Shown here in pieces: positions 55,697 to 63,494 of a DNA stretch of 64,000 nt (position 1 is the stretch's first letter; each line of letters begins with the position of its first letter). A program made the translations under genes and the position numbers. The stretch comes from Polynucleobacter sp. AP-Kaivos-20-H2. Lineage in GTDB: Bacteria > Pseudomonadota > Gammaproteobacteria > Burkholderiales > Burkholderiaceae. The stretch is from the NCBI RefSeq assembly GCF_018882215.1, contig NZ_JACVOX010000001.1, forward strand, positions 186,001-250,000, given 5' to 3'. Under the pieces are notes generated by a model. The model saw only the letters and a list, made by a program, of their open reading frames with translations. It had not been told where the DNA came from and did not search any database.

Positions 55697-57004
55697 TTAG
55701 TTTTTGGCTAGTGTCTTGATTAATTCAGTGCTGCAAATATCATCGATATGCCTATAGGCTAGAGAGATTTCTTCGATTTGATCTGCAGCAATTCCAAGGT
55801 TTTCGAAGTGTGTTTTCCATTGCCTAGTTACTCGCCATACACGATCGATAATGTCGCTTGCTTGCTGCGCGGATAGGCCAAAGCGCTCTTTGGCACCATA
55901 GGCATTATCTAGTGTGGCCAATTTACCTTGTGGTCCAACACCTAGATGTTGATAACGCTCACTTGCAATGACTGCATGAGGCATCACGTCATAGAGTGGA
56001 CTCAGGCTCCAGCCTTTAAGCGCATGGCTCCATAAGAATGCATGATTGCGTAGATGATCATCATCGTTACTAACAAAAATATTAAAGATCATGCGTGTAT
56101 ATAGTTCTTCAATATCAGCTTTGACTGTATGAACCACGCAATATCTGCGGATGGCATCCGCAATATCCATATAGCTTTTTGTATTGGATTCTGATTCGTG
56201 ACAGGTAACTAAGGTGAGGGCGCTAACGACATGATGACGAATTTCTACTGGCCGAGCAAAAGCAGTCCAAGAGCGATCAAAGCGTTTGACCATCAACACT
56301 TTTTTCTTGCCAACTTGTTCCAATTGAGTTTGCGCTACATTAAGACCGGCTAACTGCGCAAGTTTGAGTGTGGCGTATTCAATGCTCGGCACATCTAAAG
56401 CGCCATCATTGTTGCCTGGAAACTTGGCCATCCATAAAATGTTTTCATCATCGCGCACACTTGCCTTAGGGCGCATGCCCCCAAGACCGCTACCCACAAT
56501 CAAAATTCTGGATAGTGCTTCTGATACTGGCAAGCCCGCCTCAATCTTTTGCGCACCCTCGAGTACGTATGACAGATTGTGAATACTTTCGTGAGCAGGG
56601 CGCTCCTCTTGATCTAAAGAAGATCGAATGTCTAAAGCTCCAACACGATCACTGCCCGCTTCGAGTAGATAGGTTGATTCTGGAAGGCTATTGGCTGGAA
56701 CCTTAAGCCTAGCTTCAATCACTCTTCTTCCCCAAGAATCAGGAGCAGCATCCCGAATTCCACCAAAAGCCTCTAAGCCGTTAGGTGGAATGAGGCGTTT
56801 ACCTTTGATCTCACTTTTACTCCTAAGGCTAAGAGCGACTGGATCCACTTCTTGTGCGTTGCTCCTATCTAAGTAACGCAAGCCATAAGCAAATGAAGAG
56901 GCAATAAGTCTTGAGCCTTCCTCATCTACTTGCAGTTGACCTGCTGGTACAAATTCACCATCAAGATTGGCAAAGACAAAAAGATCCTTAGTGGTATTGG
57001 CCAT
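55697..57004 (-). CDS. hipA: HipA-like Ser/Thr kinase toxin
   Basis: 435 residues of the HipA family. An N-subdomain (LDGEFVPAGQLQVDEEGSRL), the P-loop-like VGSGLGGMRPKASV, a kinase core with MVKRFDRS, the catalytic loop FNIFVSNDDDHLRNHAFLW and the metal-binding LSPLYDVMP. HipA of E. coli phosphorylates glutamyl-tRNA synthetase and causes persistence; the target here is unknown. Its ATG shares one base with the stop of the antitoxin gene (TGATG), so the two are coupled. Confidence 0.88.
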   Translation of the reverse strand: MANTTKDLFVFANLDGEFVPAGQLQVDEEGSRLIASSFAYGLRYLDRSNAQEVDPVALSLRSKSEIKGKRLIPPNGLEAFGGIRDAAPDSWGRRVIEARLKVPANSLPESTYLLEAGSDRVGALDIRSSLDQEERPAHESIHNLSYVLEGAQKIEAGLPVSEALSRILIVGSGLGGMRPKASVRDDENILWMAKFPGNNDGALDVPSIEYATLKLAQLAGLNVAQTQLEQVGKKKVLMVKRFDRSWTAFARPVEIRHHVVSALTLVTCHESESNTKSYMDIADAIRRYCVVHTVKADIEELYTRMIFNIFVSNDDDHLRNHAFLWSHALKGWSLSPLYDVMPHAVIASERYQHLGVGPQGKLATLDNAYGAKERFGLSAQQASDIIDRVWRVTRQWKTHFENLGIAADQIEEISLAYRHIDDICSTELIKTLAKN

Positions 57005-57360
57005 CAGAAATCAAGCGCTTTCATTTCCGCTGCACTTAAATCACGCACGCGTTGTGGACGTGAGCGACGCTCTAAAGCAATGATCGCAGGATCATCTCCG
57101 CTTAAGAGTTGCAATAAGTTCATGCCTGGAGCGATTGCATCTAAGTAACGCAGGAGCGCACCAACGGCTACGCCAGGATCACCCTTTTCAATGCGCTGGG
57201 CAGTAGCGCGAGATAGGCCGGCACGGATTGCTGCTTCACCTTGGCGAACACGACGCGCAAGACGCAAAGAAACAAGGCATTGCGCTATTTCAGCGGATTG
57301 GCCAAGCTGCTTTGATGCTAGGGTCAGTTCTTGATCTACGCGCATAGTTGCCTCATGCAT
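57004..57360 (-). CDS. HipB-like XRE-family antitoxin
   Basis: A 118-residue HTH protein and the upstream partner of hipA. The HTH is in LRLARRVRQGEAAIRAGLSRATAQRIEKGD (about 32-61), a XRE-type repressor fold. The N- and C-terminal extensions are longer than in E. coli HipB (88). It should bind HipA and repress the pair from the palindromes just upstream. ATG 57345 is an alternative start. Confidence 0.86.
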   Translation of the reverse strand: MHEATMRVDQELTLASKQLGQSAEIAQCLVSLRLARRVRQGEAAIRAGLSRATAQRIEKGDPGVAVGALLRYLDAIAPGMNLLQLLSGDDPAIIALERRSRPQRVRDLSAAEMKALDF

Positions 57361-57601: not shown

Positions 57602-58150
57602 TTAGTTAAAGCCGTTGACCGCCTGCATATAGCCTTGAATATATTGTGGTGGTAAAAAGAGTTCAGTCTTAATTCCTGATTTGGAAGAAACGGTCAGGAT
57701 GAAACCCTTCTTCATCTTATCTTTGAGGAATGCCTCAGGTATTTGAATAGAGACCACTTCTCTAAAGATGCAACCTCTATCACCACAAGCACCAGCTTCT
57801 CTACCTACAACTTTAAATGTAGTGCTAGGTGTGTTTTCTAGTATTGCAGAGTCGTAATAACGCCATTGTGAAAAATACGTTAGTTGCGCGTTGAGCTCAT
57901 AAGTCTTTGCGCCTTGCTTTGGTTGCTCGGCTCTAAGGCTAAACATTTCATAAGTATTGGCTTCATCCATCGTGTTGATAGGAGGGCCCTGATAGGTTTT
58001 TCCACCAGTTGCAGAATTTGGCGTGATGATGGTCGAGTGATAGACATCATTAATTTCCCAGCCACTAATTTTTTTATCATTTTGGTTGCAGGCAAGAAGG
58101 CCGGCACTAATGGCAAGTAATAAGACGATTCGGTAGATGATGCGTTGCAT
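57602..58150 (-). CDS. Lipoprotein of unknown function
   Basis: 182 residues. A signal peptide (IIYRIVLLLAISAGLLAC) ends in lipobox LLAC with Cys 21. The mature part has two cysteines close together (AGACGDRGC) that could form a disulfide, and beta-rich segments. I do not recognise the family. It has its own gap on both sides (241 bases to the HipB-like gene, 63 to the SDR gene), so it is probably transcribed alone. Confidence 0.75.
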   Translation of the reverse strand: MQRIIYRIVLLLAISAGLLACNQNDKKISGWEINDVYHSTIITPNSATGGKTYQGPPINTMDEANTYEMFSLRAEQPKQGAKTYELNAQLTYFSQWRYYDSAILENTPSTTFKVVGREAGACGDRGCIFREVVSIQIPEAFLKDKMKKGFILTVSSKSGIKTELFLPPQYIQGYMQAVNGFN

Positions 58151-58213: not shown

Positions 58214-59038
58214 TTAGACGTATTTCCCGGTCAGGCCGCCATCCACTACCAGCTCAGTGCCGGTGATGTAGGAGGCAGCATCTGAGACTAAAAAGGCACA
58301 AGCATGAGCCACATCCCATGCTGTCCCAGAGCGACCCATAGGTACCTGGCGGTCACGCGCAGCCCGGGCCTCATCTAGGCCATTTTCAGAGAACATCTTG
58401 GCAACGGTATTAGCAATCCGAGGAGTATCGATTAGGCCTGGAACTACCGTATTAGCCCGAATTCCTTTATCCACATATTGTTGAGCAATCATCCGAATAA
58501 ATTGGGTATTAGCAGCCTTGGTAACGCTGTAGGCTAGGTGAGGGTAGCCAAGATAGCGCATACCAGCGACCGAAGAGATCGCAATGATGTTGCCAGTACC
58601 GCGTGCCACCATTTCAGGCAATACTTCTTGAGCTGCTAGCAATAAGCTCCGCACATTGACCTTGTGAATGCGGTCAAAATCTTCAGCGCTGGTTTCCATT
58701 GGTCCGCCAACTTTGCCAATGCCCACGTTGTGGTGCAGAACATCAATAGGACCAAATTGTTTACGTGCTTCGCTAAAAAGTCTTTTCACATCCTCTTCTT
58801 CAGAAACATCTCCAACAAAAGTCTGCGCTATACCGCCTTCATCCAGAATGATCTTGGTAGTTTCTTCTGCGGAAGCTTGATCTCGATCGACTACACAGAC
58901 CTTTGCACCTAAGCGAGCATAGGTAACACATGATGCTCTACCAATACTCCATCCAGGACCTGCAGATCCGCCACCAGAGACGAAGATTACTCGATCAGTG
59001 AGATCTGTTGGCAAACCAGGAGGATGATTACTTTCCAT
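58214..59038 (-). CDS. Short-chain dehydrogenase/reductase (first)
   Basis: A 274-residue classical SDR. A glycine-rich cofactor loop (SGGGSAGPGWSIGRA, longer than usual), NVG at the NAG position, and the Ser-Tyr-Lys triad in ISSVAGMRYLGYPHLAYSVTKAA. A basic residue is absent and an acidic one follows strand 2 (VVDRD), favouring NAD(H). Its ATG follows the stop of the next upstream SDR without any gap (TAA-ATG). Substrate unknown; last gene of the catabolic operon. Confidence 0.9.
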   Translation of the reverse strand: MESNHPPGLPTDLTDRVIFVSGGGSAGPGWSIGRASCVTYARLGAKVCVVDRDQASAEETTKIILDEGGIAQTFVGDVSEEEDVKRLFSEARKQFGPIDVLHHNVGIGKVGGPMETSAEDFDRIHKVNVRSLLLAAQEVLPEMVARGTGNIIAISSVAGMRYLGYPHLAYSVTKAANTQFIRMIAQQYVDKGIRANTVVPGLIDTPRIANTVAKMFSENGLDEARAARDRQVPMGRSGTAWDVAHACAFLVSDAASYITGTELVVDGGLTGKYV

Positions 59039-59779
59039 TTATTGGCTCAGTCCCACTGTCATGCCGCCACAAACATAAACAACCTGACCAGTAGTAAAGC
59101 CGGCGCGATGATCAAGTAGTGAAGCGGCAATATGAGCCACTTCCTCTGGTTGGCCAATGCGACCAAGCGGCACGCTATCTAAGATGCGTTGCGTAGCAGG
59201 TACGCCAGGAGGGTTGGCACTCTGAAAGAGCTCAGTTGCTATCGGGCCTGGTCCAATCGCATTAACCGTAATGCCATCATTTGCGAGCTCTAAAGCCAAA
59301 GTGCGAGTCAATCCCAGTAATCCTGCCTTAGAAGTCGCATACGAAATACGCTCTTCTTTACCCAAAGCAGCACGACTAGCAATATTCACAATGCGACCAA
59401 AATGAGCGGCTTTCATAGTGGGAAGTAAGGCTTGCACGCAAATAATGGCAGCCGCGACATTCACATTCATGACCGCTTGAAAATCTGCAATCGTAGTCTT
59501 CTCGATTGTGGCGGGGCGCACGATTCCTGCGTTATTGACTAAACGAGTGATTGCAAATTGAGACGCTATCTTGGCTAATGCATCACGCAAAACTTTTTCA
59601 TCTGAAACATCTACTTTGATGAAGGTTTCATGCTTAGCAATATTGCCAGGGACTTCTTTATCAAGGTTAATTACATGCATGCCATCCGCAATCAGGCGCT
59701 CTGATATCGCACGCCCGATGCCGCGGCTAGCGCCAGTGACTAATACGCATTCCCTGGTTGATTTGACTTCAGAAACCAT
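59039..59779 (-). CDS. Short-chain dehydrogenase/reductase (second, FabG-like)
   Basis: A 246-residue SDR with TGASRGIG, NNAG, and the catalytic IASRAALGKEERISYATSKAG. The acidic NLDKE after strand 2 again favours NAD(H). It is most similar in layout to 3-hydroxyacyl-CoA/ACP dehydrogenases. It lies two bases after the lyase gene. Together with the other SDR it suggests two oxidation steps in one pathway. Confidence 0.9.
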   Translation of the reverse strand: MVSEVKSTRECVLVTGASRGIGRAISERLIADGMHVINLDKEVPGNIAKHETFIKVDVSDEKVLRDALAKIASQFAITRLVNNAGIVRPATIEKTTIADFQAVMNVNVAAAIICVQALLPTMKAAHFGRIVNIASRAALGKEERISYATSKAGLLGLTRTLALELANDGITVNAIGPGPIATELFQSANPPGVPATQRILDSVPLGRIGQPEEVAHIAASLLDHRAGFTTGQVVYVCGGMTVGLSQ

Positions 59780-59781
59780 TA

Positions 59782-60561
59782 TTAGCCAATCTTATTGGCG
59801 CCATCCACAAACGGAATGGCATGTTCAATCGTGTCCCAAATAAAGCGACCAGATGGGCTTTGTTGCTCCTCAACAATATGGGCCACTAAGCCAGCAGAGC
59901 GGGAGATGACCGCAAAGCCACGCATCACAGCTGTAGGAATGCCAATCTCACCTAATAGGGCGGCAACCGCACCAGTGGCATTAATCGTAATGGGGCGACC
60001 AGCCACTTCATCCACTGCTTTAGATAGGGTCTCAAGAGCTCTAATGTGATCACCTTTGAGTTCTTTCTCAGCACGGCCCATGTCTAATAGTTTGTATGCT
60101 CGTGGATCTAACGGCTTATGCAGGTGATGTCCAAAGCCAGGAACAGCACCTTTAATGCTCTTGTAATGATGCGCAATGGAAAGAGCTTCAGCGTATTGGT
60201 CTTTGGCGGCAATGATGCGATCAAGCAAGGCGGAACAATTTTCCATTGTGCCAATAAAGGAGCTGCCAACAGCAAGTAAGCCTGCAGAAACTGCGCCTTG
60301 AAGGTTCTCTGGGGCGCTCATATAGATCAAGCGTGTGGCTATTGCACTCGGCGTTAAACCATGCTCCATCAACACAATCAGCACTACGTCTGTAATGCGA
60401 ATATCAACACCACGAGGCTCTCTACCTAAAATCTGCATCAACATCACTTCGGTAAATGTTTTCTTGCCCATCAAATCTTTCACTAAATCTGCATCGCGAT
60501 AATGCAGGCTAGTCAGGGTATGGGTGCATAAGCCAGTGATAGGAGTTTTTTTGTCAGTCAT
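59782..60561 (-). CDS. Citryl-CoA lyase / citrate-synthase-superfamily protein
   Basis: A 259-residue protein equal to the small-domain plus core of citrate synthase. VPGFGHHLHKPLDPRAYKL matches the second catalytic-His region (GFGH ... DPRA) and LMEHGLTPSA could hold the first His. The segment that normally gives NVD has NATGAV, so the catalytic Asp appears to be replaced. It is annotated in related bacteria as citryl-CoA lyase, but the true reaction is uncertain; a retro-Claisen C-C cleavage of a CoA ester is inferred from context. Confidence 0.8.
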   Translation of the reverse strand: MTDKKTPITGLCTHTLTSLHYRDADLVKDLMGKKTFTEVMLMQILGREPRGVDIRITDVVLIVLMEHGLTPSAIATRLIYMSAPENLQGAVSAGLLAVGSSFIGTMENCSALLDRIIAAKDQYAEALSIAHHYKSIKGAVPGFGHHLHKPLDPRAYKLLDMGRAEKELKGDHIRALETLSKAVDEVAGRPITINATGAVAALLGEIGIPTAVMRGFAVISRSAGLVAHIVEEQQSPSGRFIWDTIEHAIPFVDGANKIG

Positions 60562-60584
60562 AGTCTATAAGTATTCAATATTGT

Positions 60585-62093
60585 CTAGGCAGGAGTTTGA
60601 AGTTTTTGAATCACAGCACTCTTAAGAAGCTTGCCCACATTGGAGCGTGGCAAGCTCTCATAGAAATGGACGTGCTTAGGAGTTTGTACTGGCCCCAATA
60701 AATTGCGAACAAATGCAATCAGTTCTGCTTCATCCGCTTTTTGTCCAGGATGTAATTGGACGGCAGCTTGAACAGTTTCACCCCACTTTTCGTCGGGGAG
60801 GCCAAAGACAAGGCATTCGTGAACGGCAGGGTGCTGACTTAAGGCGTTCTCAACATCCACTGGGTACACATTAAATCCGCCAGTAATCACGATGTCCTTA
60901 AGGCGATCCTTGAGATACAAAAATCCACGTTCATCAATTAGGCCGCGATCACCAGTATGAAGCCAGCCATCGATAATGGTTTCAGCAGTCTTTTCAGGCA
61001 TGCGCCAATAGCCACTCATCAGCAGATCACCTCGGGCAACCACTTCACCGATTTCACCGGTAGGTAATAACTTTCCTTCGGGAGACATGATGGCCACATC
61101 ACTAAACCAAGTGGGTCTGCCAACAGCTGCCCAGTTGTTGGGATCTTCAAAATCCTCAGGCCGCATGACCGTCAAAATTTGCGGCGCTTCGGTTTGACCA
61201 TAGGTCGTACCCAATACTGGGCCAAAGAAATCACGCACCTTACGCACTTGTTCTGGAGGCATTGGCGCGCCGCCATAAATCAGCCTGCGTAACTTTGGAA
61301 AATCGTTTCTAGATGCATTGGGTAATGCCATCAACATATAAACAAGGGTTGGCGGCATAAAGCAGACAGTGCCGCGACGCTCACGAAACGCAGTTCTCAC
61401 CACTTCAGCTCCTGCACCATCCATAATCACATGACAACCACCTTGCGCCAAGATCGGAACAATATAGGTAGATGTGCCATGCGTAATCGGAGCGGCAACA
61501 ACATAGCGCTCATGCTCATCAAATCCCCATACCTGAATCTGATTGCTGATGTTTGCCATCCAAGCGCGATAGGGCTGCATTACACCCTTAGGAGCCCCAG
61601 TAGTGCCACCGGTAAATTTAATGGCCTGAATTGCATCTAGGGGTAATTCAAAAGAAGGTTGCGGCGCATCTTCATGCAATTGAATTAATTCGTTCATACT
61701 CCGCGCAGAAGCATCAGAGTCAGTGCCTGTATAAACCCATGCCCCTGCAGCGCCTTTAAGTAATGCTTGATTAGTGGCATCCAAAATCACAATAGAAGGC
61801 TTGGTGACATTAACAATACGCTGAATCTCAGGGTGGGTGCTCTTAGGGTTCAGTGGTACCCAGACCTTGCCACAAGCCAAAATAGCTAATAAGGCAGTAA
61901 TGTGATCAGCGCTATTACCAGCACATATAGCAACACGACTCTGAAGGCTGGGGTCTAAAGCTGTGAGTCCTGCGGATAAGGCTTTAACGCGCTTCGCTAG
62001 GGTGGCGTAATGAATCGGGCCACTCGGTGTATCAATGGCAATGCGATCGGGCCAACGCTGTGCGGCCCTCCAAAAAAAATCAATCGGAAACAT
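60585..62093 (-). CDS. Acyl-CoA synthetase (AMP-forming)
   Basis: A 502-residue adenylate-forming ligase. The P-loop is KFTGGTTGAPKGV, followed by TYGQTEAP, SGYWRMPEKT, the hinge GDRGLIDERGFLYLKDRLKDI and the catalytic lysine in SNVGKLLK. It would activate the imported carboxylic acid with CoA. Resembles ligases for medium-chain, cyclic or aromatic acids; the acid-binding pocket cannot be read by eye. Six bases separate it from the solute-binding-protein gene. Confidence 0.92.
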   Translation of the reverse strand: MFPIDFFWRAAQRWPDRIAIDTPSGPIHYATLAKRVKALSAGLTALDPSLQSRVAICAGNSADHITALLAILACGKVWVPLNPKSTHPEIQRIVNVTKPSIVILDATNQALLKGAAGAWVYTGTDSDASARSMNELIQLHEDAPQPSFELPLDAIQAIKFTGGTTGAPKGVMQPYRAWMANISNQIQVWGFDEHERYVVAAPITHGTSTYIVPILAQGGCHVIMDGAGAEVVRTAFRERRGTVCFMPPTLVYMLMALPNASRNDFPKLRRLIYGGAPMPPEQVRKVRDFFGPVLGTTYGQTEAPQILTVMRPEDFEDPNNWAAVGRPTWFSDVAIMSPEGKLLPTGEIGEVVARGDLLMSGYWRMPEKTAETIIDGWLHTGDRGLIDERGFLYLKDRLKDIVITGGFNVYPVDVENALSQHPAVHECLVFGLPDEKWGETVQAAVQLHPGQKADEAELIAFVRNLLGPVQTPKHVHFYESLPRSNVGKLLKSAVIQKLQTPA

Positions 62094-62099
62094 AATGAG

Positions 62100-63092
62100 T
62101 TATTCGGCTTTAGCGCCGGAAGCCTTTACAACATCTCGCCAGCGTTTAACTTCGGTTGCTTCAAATGCAGCCATTTTTTCTGGTGAACCAGGCTCTGGTG
62201 TTGCGGCTAACTCTTGCATGCGCTGACGCACCTCAGGTGAGTTAAGTGCTTTATTCAGAGCGGCATTTAGTTGTGTGATGACTGGTTTTGGAGTTCCGGC
62301 TGGGGCGACTAATGCAAACCAAGACTGCACATCAAAACCGGGATAGCCTGATTCAGCAATAGTTGGAACATCTGGCAAAAATGGGGAGCGTTGGGCGCTA
62401 GTCACAGCAATCGGACGAAGTTTTCCGGCCTTAATATGAGGTAATGCAGAGGGTGCGTTGTCAAACATGGATTCCACTTGACCGCCAAGCAAATCCGTTA
62501 CTGCAGGAGCGCTACCTTTATAAGGAATATGCAGCATTTGAATTTTTGCTTGCATCTTAAACATTTCACCGGAAAGGTGAATAGATGAGCCGCTACCAGA
62601 GGAGGCAAAGGTTACGCCATCTTTCGCATCCTTAGCGTAGCGCACGTATTCTGCAAGCGTTTTTACTGGAAGATTTGGGTTTACTACCAAAATATTCGGG
62701 ATCTTGGCAATCATGCCGATCGGCTCAAAATCTTTAATCGGGTCATAGCTTAGGTTCGGATAGAGCGTGGCGTTAATCGTATTCGCAATGGAAAAGGCGT
62801 AAAGCGTATAGCCATCTGCAGGTGAGCGAGCCACAATTTCTGCGCCAACGTTGCTATTGGCGCCTGGGCGGTTTTCTACCACGATAGATTGACCTAAGGT
62901 ATTGCCCATGCCAACTGATACCAAGCGGGTTAATACATCGGTTGCACCACCAGCGGAATAGCCAACAATAATTTTGATGGGTTTGGTAGGCCAGGCAGCG
63001 TTAGATTGCGCTAGGGCCGGAATTGAAGCGGCCGTGATGAGGGCAGCAAAAACAGTCAGCAAGCCTTTTTTGGGCGTGAAATGTAAAGACAT
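62100..63092 (-). CDS. Tripartite tricarboxylate transporter (Bug/TctC) solute-binding protein
   Basis: A 330-residue periplasmic binding protein with a signal peptide cleaved near ALAQ-SNA. The Bug-family motifs are WPTKPIKIIVGYSAGGATDVLTR, NRPGANSNVGAE and MQELAATPEPGSPE. It starts after a GAAGGAG ribosome site and leads the operon. The membrane subunits TctA/TctB are not in the window, so it must use a shared transporter. It probably defines the substrate of the downstream ligase, a small carboxylate. Confidence 0.92.
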   Translation of the reverse strand: MSLHFTPKKGLLTVFAALITAASIPALAQSNAAWPTKPIKIIVGYSAGGATDVLTRLVSVGMGNTLGQSIVVENRPGANSNVGAEIVARSPADGYTLYAFSIANTINATLYPNLSYDPIKDFEPIGMIAKIPNILVVNPNLPVKTLAEYVRYAKDAKDGVTFASSGSGSSIHLSGEMFKMQAKIQMLHIPYKGSAPAVTDLLGGQVESMFDNAPSALPHIKAGKLRPIAVTSAQRSPFLPDVPTIAESGYPGFDVQSWFALVAPAGTPKPVITQLNAALNKALNSPEVRQRMQELAATPEPGSPEKMAAFEATEVKRWRDVVKASGAKAE

Positions 63093-63267: not shown

Positions 63268-63295
63268 TTCACAACTTCAGAAGTTGTGATATAGT
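63268..63295 (+). promoter_or_regulatory. Promoter with a 21-base operator palindrome in its spacer
   Basis: -35 TTCACA (63268-63273) and -10 TATAGT (63290-63295) are 16 bases apart. A perfect palindrome (arm TCACAACTTC, centre A, 63269-63289) fills the spacer. A second TCACAACTTC half-site overlaps it upstream (63261-63270). Position and symmetry point to a repressor operator. Confidence 0.55.
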
Positions 63296-63314
63296 GTTGG
63301 TACTGGGAGATGAA

Positions 63315-63494
63315 ATGAAGAGACAGGTACCGAAAACACATCAAGCCTTGGAGTGGGTGGGGAAGGGTATGACCGCTGCTCAAGCGGCCAGAAAGATGCA
63401 GATTTCAGAATCCAGTGTGTATGCCGCCCTTAGAAAGACAAAGGCGAAAGAAGTGGGTTGTTGTCCAACGTGTGGTCACAAAATAAGGAACTAA
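63315..63494 (+). CDS. Mini HTH protein with a CxxC zinc knuckle
   Basis: A 59-residue protein. Residues 8-40 form a small HTH (HQALEWVGKGMTAAQAARKM, then ISESSVYAALRK), as in resolvase or phage-type DNA-binding proteins. The end has CCPTCGHK, half of a zinc ribbon. ATG 63315 follows GGGAG by six bases. The gene faces away from the Bug operon and starts right behind a strong palindrome, so it may be an autoregulator. I do not recognise a named family. Confidence 0.75.
   Translation: MKRQVPKTHQALEWVGKGMTAAQAARKMQISESSVYAALRKTKAKEVGCCPTCGHKIRN

Follow-up and report, generated by a model that had tools for sequence, protein, structure and literature searches.

The window, that is, the whole stretch of 64,000 nucleotides of Polynucleobacter sp. 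AP-Kaivos-20-H2 DNA analysed here, carries five open reading frames between positions 58,214 and 63,092, all on the minus strand, and the coordinates and families given for them in a preliminary description were found to be correct. The first gene in the order of transcription (BUG, 62100..63092) encodes a periplasmic carboxylate-binding protein of the TctC/Bug type (PF03401, E = 1.1e-76, 258 bits). It is followed by the genes of an AMP-forming acyl-CoA ligase (ACS, 60585..62093; PF00501 and PF13193), a citrate-synthase-fold CoA lyase of the dyad-less clade described below, which is annotated as citryl-CoA lyase (CCL, 59782..60561; PF00285, NF004867), a classical SDR (SDR1, 59039..59779; PF13561/PF00106), and an SDR with a stretched glycine motif (SDR2, 58214..59038; PF13561/PF00106). 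In the same order, the intergenic gaps measure 6, 23, 2, and 0 bases, in agreement with the range of 0-23 bases given before. Each of the five genes belongs to a known family.

Several other features surround the operon. A gene for a predicted lipoprotein of 182 amino acids (57602-58150, minus strand) lies 63 bases past SDR2 on the same strand; a scan of this protein against Pfam and NCBIfam gave no match, and its family occurs in seven of the 80 loci compared below, all from Polynucleobacter (L003-L009) and each time directly after SDR2. A HipA_C gene (PF07804) and a helix-turn-helix gene (PF13560) form a HipAB-like pair at 55697-57360 (minus strand). Divergent to the operon, a 66-aa open reading frame (63294-63494, plus strand) resembles a helix-turn-helix and zinc-ribbon protein and is a possible regulator. 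A scan detected four promoter-like and five terminator-like sites, compared with 10.0 and 6.3, respectively, in shuffled sequences, and these sites were set aside.

The PF03401 domain assigns BUG to the Bug/TctC solute receptors, and its relatives in the PDB include Bug27, BugD, and terephthalate-binding proteins. This domain is shared with the receptors of tripartite tricarboxylate (TTT) uptake systems, but in the window neither a TctA nor a TctB gene adjoins BUG. The single TctA match in the window genome lies on another contig, and uptake probably proceeds via this protein. ACS has the two domains and the conserved motifs of AMP-forming acyl-CoA ligases; across 81 aligned rows, its FTGGTTG.PKGV motif is invariant, as is the Lys in the last motif, VGK.LK. 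Both SDRs contain the Rossmann-type domain of classical SDRs, with active-site Ser, Tyr, and Lys invariant in 26 rows for SDR1 and in 53 rows for SDR2 (52 of the 55 loci with this gene plus the window, after short rows were dropped); an Asp after the second strand suggests that both are NAD-type. Sequence searches of the PDB with BUG, ACS, SDR1, and SDR2 returned broad families only and pointed to no substrate.

To define the conserved part of the gene set, one genome per species was scanned with CCL, and the loci of the best 80 of 154 relatives were compared. With identities of 78-98%, these loci represent one close ortholog group; among these best 80, the closest named loci are those of Polynucleobacter (up to 98% identity). 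Going by record titles, all are from Burkholderiales, save one MAG named simply Proteobacteria bacterium. Genes were called, here and in the distant loci below, by simple callers of our own, the later of which missed the lyase in L150 and L160. In all 80 loci the CCL gene is directly preceded by the ACS gene on the same strand; BUG directly precedes ACS in 78, the exceptions being L011, which has no BUG match, and L067, in which BUG is broken into two pieces. A chance cluster was rejected in view of these adjacencies, and the five genes are co-inherited. SDR2 is present in 55 of the 80 loci and SDR1 in 25 (it is missing from 55); the full set of five genes, for which a joint search had been suggested, occurs in 25 loci, and another 25 have neither SDR. 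The conserved core is therefore BUG, ACS, and CCL, three genes and not five. An IclR-type regulator gene accompanies 59 of the 80 loci (PF01614 was checked in one member). Of the 13 Polynucleobacter-type loci (L003-L015), 12 have both SDRs, 12 have the full five-gene form, and none has the IclR gene.

The two oxidations that the preliminary description had placed in the pathway do not hold as a core step. Besides the loci without SDRs, no SDR2 ortholog was found in any of the 19 genomes searched (completeness unstated) of the 25 whose locus is without SDR2: one such genome gave a match of 42% identity, and in all three control genomes the ortholog was found at 73-79%. This absence elsewhere in the genome indicates that the oxidations are accessory, and a two-oxidation pathway was rejected as the core logic of the operon.

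Within the genus Polynucleobacter the trait is patchy, as CCL is present in 17 of 121 genomes (E <= 1e-60). Ten of these 17 genomes consist of a single contig, and in the deposited records of all ten CCL lies between 0.84 and 0.97 Mb on the minus strand, as would be expected if a single ancestral site had been lost in other lineages. Recent mobile transfer was judged unlikely on the basis of these ten single-contig relatives, which share strand and region; the window genome is split over 15 contigs. Another Polynucleobacter relative (G397) carries BUG-ACS-CCL-SDR1 at 50, 59, 66, and 55% identity, respectively, in a different neighbourhood, and this more distant version, with its CCL at 66%, was probably gained separately. 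At low identity, a single cluster with the order IclR-ACS-CCL-SDR1-TctC-TctB-TctA-SDR2 is found in Ponticoccus, where TctA, TctB, and TctC thus lie in the same cluster.

Additional genes accompany the operon in some genomes. An amidase gene family is located upstream on the same strand in five Polynucleobacter-type loci, L011-L015 (PF01425 in L011 and L013), directly before the operon in L011, L013, L014, and L015, so the acid may be derived from an amide. In the Delftia loci L045, L067, and L072, three genes on the strand of CCL come after it and may extend the pathway; they encode a family III CoA-transferase, a second Bug protein, and an enoyl-CoA hydratase, with Pfam assignments taken from L045 only.

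The central enzyme of the core is CCL. It scores 479 bits against NF004867, the NCBIfam equivalog for citryl-CoA lyase (cut-off 409), and the best PDB fold match of its structure model, which is of medium confidence (pLDDT 74), is the citryl-CoA lyase of Hydrogenobacter thermophilus (6hxp; TM 0.70, 31% identity over 210 columns). CCL has the fold and size of this enzyme and of the citryl-CoA lyase module of ATP-citrate lyase, and a large part of the active-site frame is common to all three. It also shares the PF00285 superfamily with citrate synthase and 2-methylcitrate synthase, but its match covers profile positions 145-350 of 357 and the N-terminal part of the synthase domain is missing. 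Over 81 close sequences, 119 of 259 positions are invariant, including His67, His145, and Arg221, which are also kept in the dyad-less alignment; in citrate synthase the corresponding sites are the positions that hold the oxo acid. His145 (codon 60127..60129, minus strand), at the site of citrate-synthase His320, is invariant both in the 81 sequences and in the 27-row dyad-less alignment.

In pig citrate synthase, His274 and Asp375 form the pair that acts on the acetyl-CoA side, and both are replaced in CCL. The site of the catalytic Asp is occupied by Thr196 (codon 59974..59976, minus strand) and that of His274 by Phe102 (codon 60256..60258, minus strand), each without exception in 81 of 81 close sequences. 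Neither the Asp of the NVDG/NIDG motif nor the His of the GxxHGG motif of free-standing lyases is therefore present. 6hxp has both residues at these sites, and the ATP-citrate lyase module (6hxn) has a Phe at the His site like CCL, but keeps the Asp. A misaligned Asp column was considered and rejected, since phmmer (with 6hxp, 6s6f, and 6hxn), MAFFT, the profile search with hmmsearch, and hhalign (27 dyad-less lyases, aligned once with 15 dyad-intact lyases and once with 13 synthases) all place Thr196 there; Phe102 takes the His site wherever the alignment partner has His (6hxp and the hhalign sets). The earlier assignment of CCL as a citrate-synthase-type lyase is thus borne out for the fold, and yet this label hides the replacement of both members of the catalytic pair.

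The replacement extends far beyond the close orthologs. A superfamily tree of 80 rows was built from 93 rows, less one short row and duplicates, with nine Burkholderiales rows added; it is a quick tree with SH-aLRT support only, and the two trait columns were left out of its building. Thirty-eight rows have the His together with Asp (34) or Glu (4), 42 have neither, and none is mixed. A clade with an SH-aLRT of 97 contains 41 of the 42 dyad-less rows; when the long-branch outlier L179 is included, support is 73. A single change on the tree suffices to explain the pattern. In 40 of the 42 dyad-less rows, the residue at the Asp site is Thr, Ser, or Asn. The NCBIfam name is citryl-CoA lyase on both sides of the split. 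When ten further proteins were scanned with NCBIfam, seven of the eight dyad-less ones matched best to NF004868 and one to NF004867 (below the cut-off of this model, above that of NF004868), and the two intact ones to NF004864 and NF004869; since the intact L132 also passes the NF004868 cut-off, the model boundary does not track the dyad exactly. Further relatives were matched, by sequence only, in a haloarchaeon and in Streptomyces.

Genes for CoA ligases or CoA-transferases are frequent near the dyad-less lyases. In each of the eight distant loci L151-L158, the lyase is next to a gene of one cluster, whose member in L152 was confirmed as CoA-transferase family III; L159 contains a ligase gene. 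Of 14 named plasmid loci with a dyad-less lyase (two window-type ones were excluded), eight have a ligase or CoA-transferase at most two genes from the lyase, three have one only at a greater distance, and three show none in their gene tables, which are incomplete. Neighbours across the clade include intradiol dioxygenases, LeuC/LeuD or aconitase-type proteins, and acyl-CoA dehydrogenases with hydratases. On a Burkholderia glumae plasmid (L176), the lyase gene occurs with those of an intradiol dioxygenase, a family III CoA-transferase, and LeuC/LeuD-type hydratases; in L151 it occurs with a dioxygenase, and in L153 a Bug gene and an aconitase gene of the LeuC type are its companions, neighbourhoods suggesting an undescribed ring-cleavage route. 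These surroundings point to a family that cleaves CoA-activated acids in several pathways.

Based on these data, we interpret the locus, with moderate confidence, as an operon for the breakdown of a small carboxylic acid: the acid would be taken up and activated with CoA, and a divergent citrate-synthase-fold lyase would then cleave a C-C bond of the hydroxy- or oxo-acyl-CoA. These three steps of the logic proposed earlier fit the conserved three-gene core, and the two oxidations fall outside it. BUG would bind the acid in the periplasm and pass it to a TctAB-type permease encoded elsewhere, ACS would convert it to the CoA thioester, and CCL would cut the C2-C3 bond of the 3-hydroxy- or 3-oxo-acyl-CoA; the products would be an acyl-CoA and a small carbonyl compound or carboxylate. 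The alignments show that CCL has kept the oxo-acid side of the site (His67, His145, and Arg221) without the His/Asp pair of the acetyl-CoA side, and it is therefore probably not a citryl-CoA lyase. SDR1 and SDR2 would be optional, feeding hydroxylated precursors or both stereoisomers into the core, or processing the product.

A variant that we consider rather unlikely gives the SDRs a larger part. A 3-oxo acid would be formed from a 3-hydroxy acid by SDR1 and SDR2, and CCL would take the role of a thiolase, cleaving the 3-oxoacyl-CoA with water in a retro-Claisen reaction; the acid formed could protonate the enolate, which would make the Asp dispensable. An SDR gene indeed adjoins the dyad-less lyase in L116, L117, L118, and L178, with an acyl-CoA dehydrogenase paired in the last three and a MaoC-type hydratase in L117 and L118. 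In 55 of the 80 window-type loci, moreover, the gene after CCL is SDR2 or SDR1, and one SDR1 relative lies two genes from a beta-keto-acid cleavage enzyme, which is on the opposite strand. However, the 25 loci with neither SDR mean that the core must also function without them, and L171 and L173, in which a hydratase is listed but no dehydrogenase in the stretch shown, are a better fit to a retro-aldol cleavage.

An ordinary citrate or citramalate route was rejected as the first choice and retained as a rival, one that we regard as distinctly unlikely. ACS would then make citryl-CoA or a close analogue, and CCL would be a working citryl-CoA lyase whose acid/base residues are replaced by others nearby. 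The score above the equivalog cut-off, the true citryl-CoA lyase as top fold match, and the retained oxo-acid-binding positions all agree with this, and a Bug protein suits a di- or tricarboxylate. Against it stand the AMP-forming nature of the adjoining activator (PF00501), whereas the citryl-CoA synthetase of Hydrogenobacter, the type of partner with which such a lyase works, is ADP-forming, and the clade-wide replacement of both His and Asp without a single mixed row. It was reported that human ATP-citrate lyase with Asp changed to Ala (D1026A) forms and accumulates citryl-CoA but produces no acetyl-CoA (PMC10115795), which also speaks against a working citryl-CoA lyase. The authors of that study conclude that the citryl-CoA lyase module is an allosteric and not a chemical site (PMC10115795). 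The Asp is thus important in the human enzyme, but as its chemical role there is disputed, its loss in CCL is no proof of a different reaction. The loss of the dyad may thus be taken as strong but not conclusive evidence that CCL catalyses a reaction other than that of citryl-CoA lyase.

That the dyad-less protein is not a lyase at all, but a thioesterase, a hydratase, or a CoA-binding partner of ACS, is highly improbable: the loss of both acid/base residues could be the trace of a change in function, and citrate synthase mutants in older work reportedly had altered partial reactions, but a thioesterase would undo the work of the adjoining CoA ligase in a futile cycle wherever the locus has no SDR, and the many invariant positions of CCL, among them the three retained active-site residues, argue for catalysis.

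Judged by titles and the openings of abstracts, none of the papers listed in a literature search deals with the operon or the dyad-less clade, in line with the earlier statement that no named pathway has this gene combination, and no phenotype linked to the locus was found in the Polynucleobacter species descriptions searched. Citryl-CoA lyase serves as a marker for one version of the reverse TCA cycle. Since annotation gives this name to proteins without the two catalytic residues, automated pathway calls may be wrong. C. metallidurans CH34 carries this locus, and the genome paper describes the strain as being without the citryl-CoA synthetase/lyase pair (PMC2864759).

Returning to the reading of CCL as a divergent lyase, we tentatively propose, short of an even chance, that the large clade now named citryl-CoA lyase, which is proteobacterial with at least one actinobacterial member, is a separate, dyad-independent class of citrate-synthase-fold C-C lyases, possibly with an acid group derived from the substrate as the proton donor. 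Such enzymes would provide the cleavage step, or a substitute for thiolase, in many uncharacterised CoA-dependent catabolic pathways, including the one formed by this three-gene core and its dehydrogenases. The small size of the core makes the question experimentally tractable. Should the clade prove to be a lyase of its own kind, one of the most thoroughly studied enzyme folds would gain a new reaction, and common bacteria of fresh water and soil would seem to feed on organic acids in a way not yet recognised.
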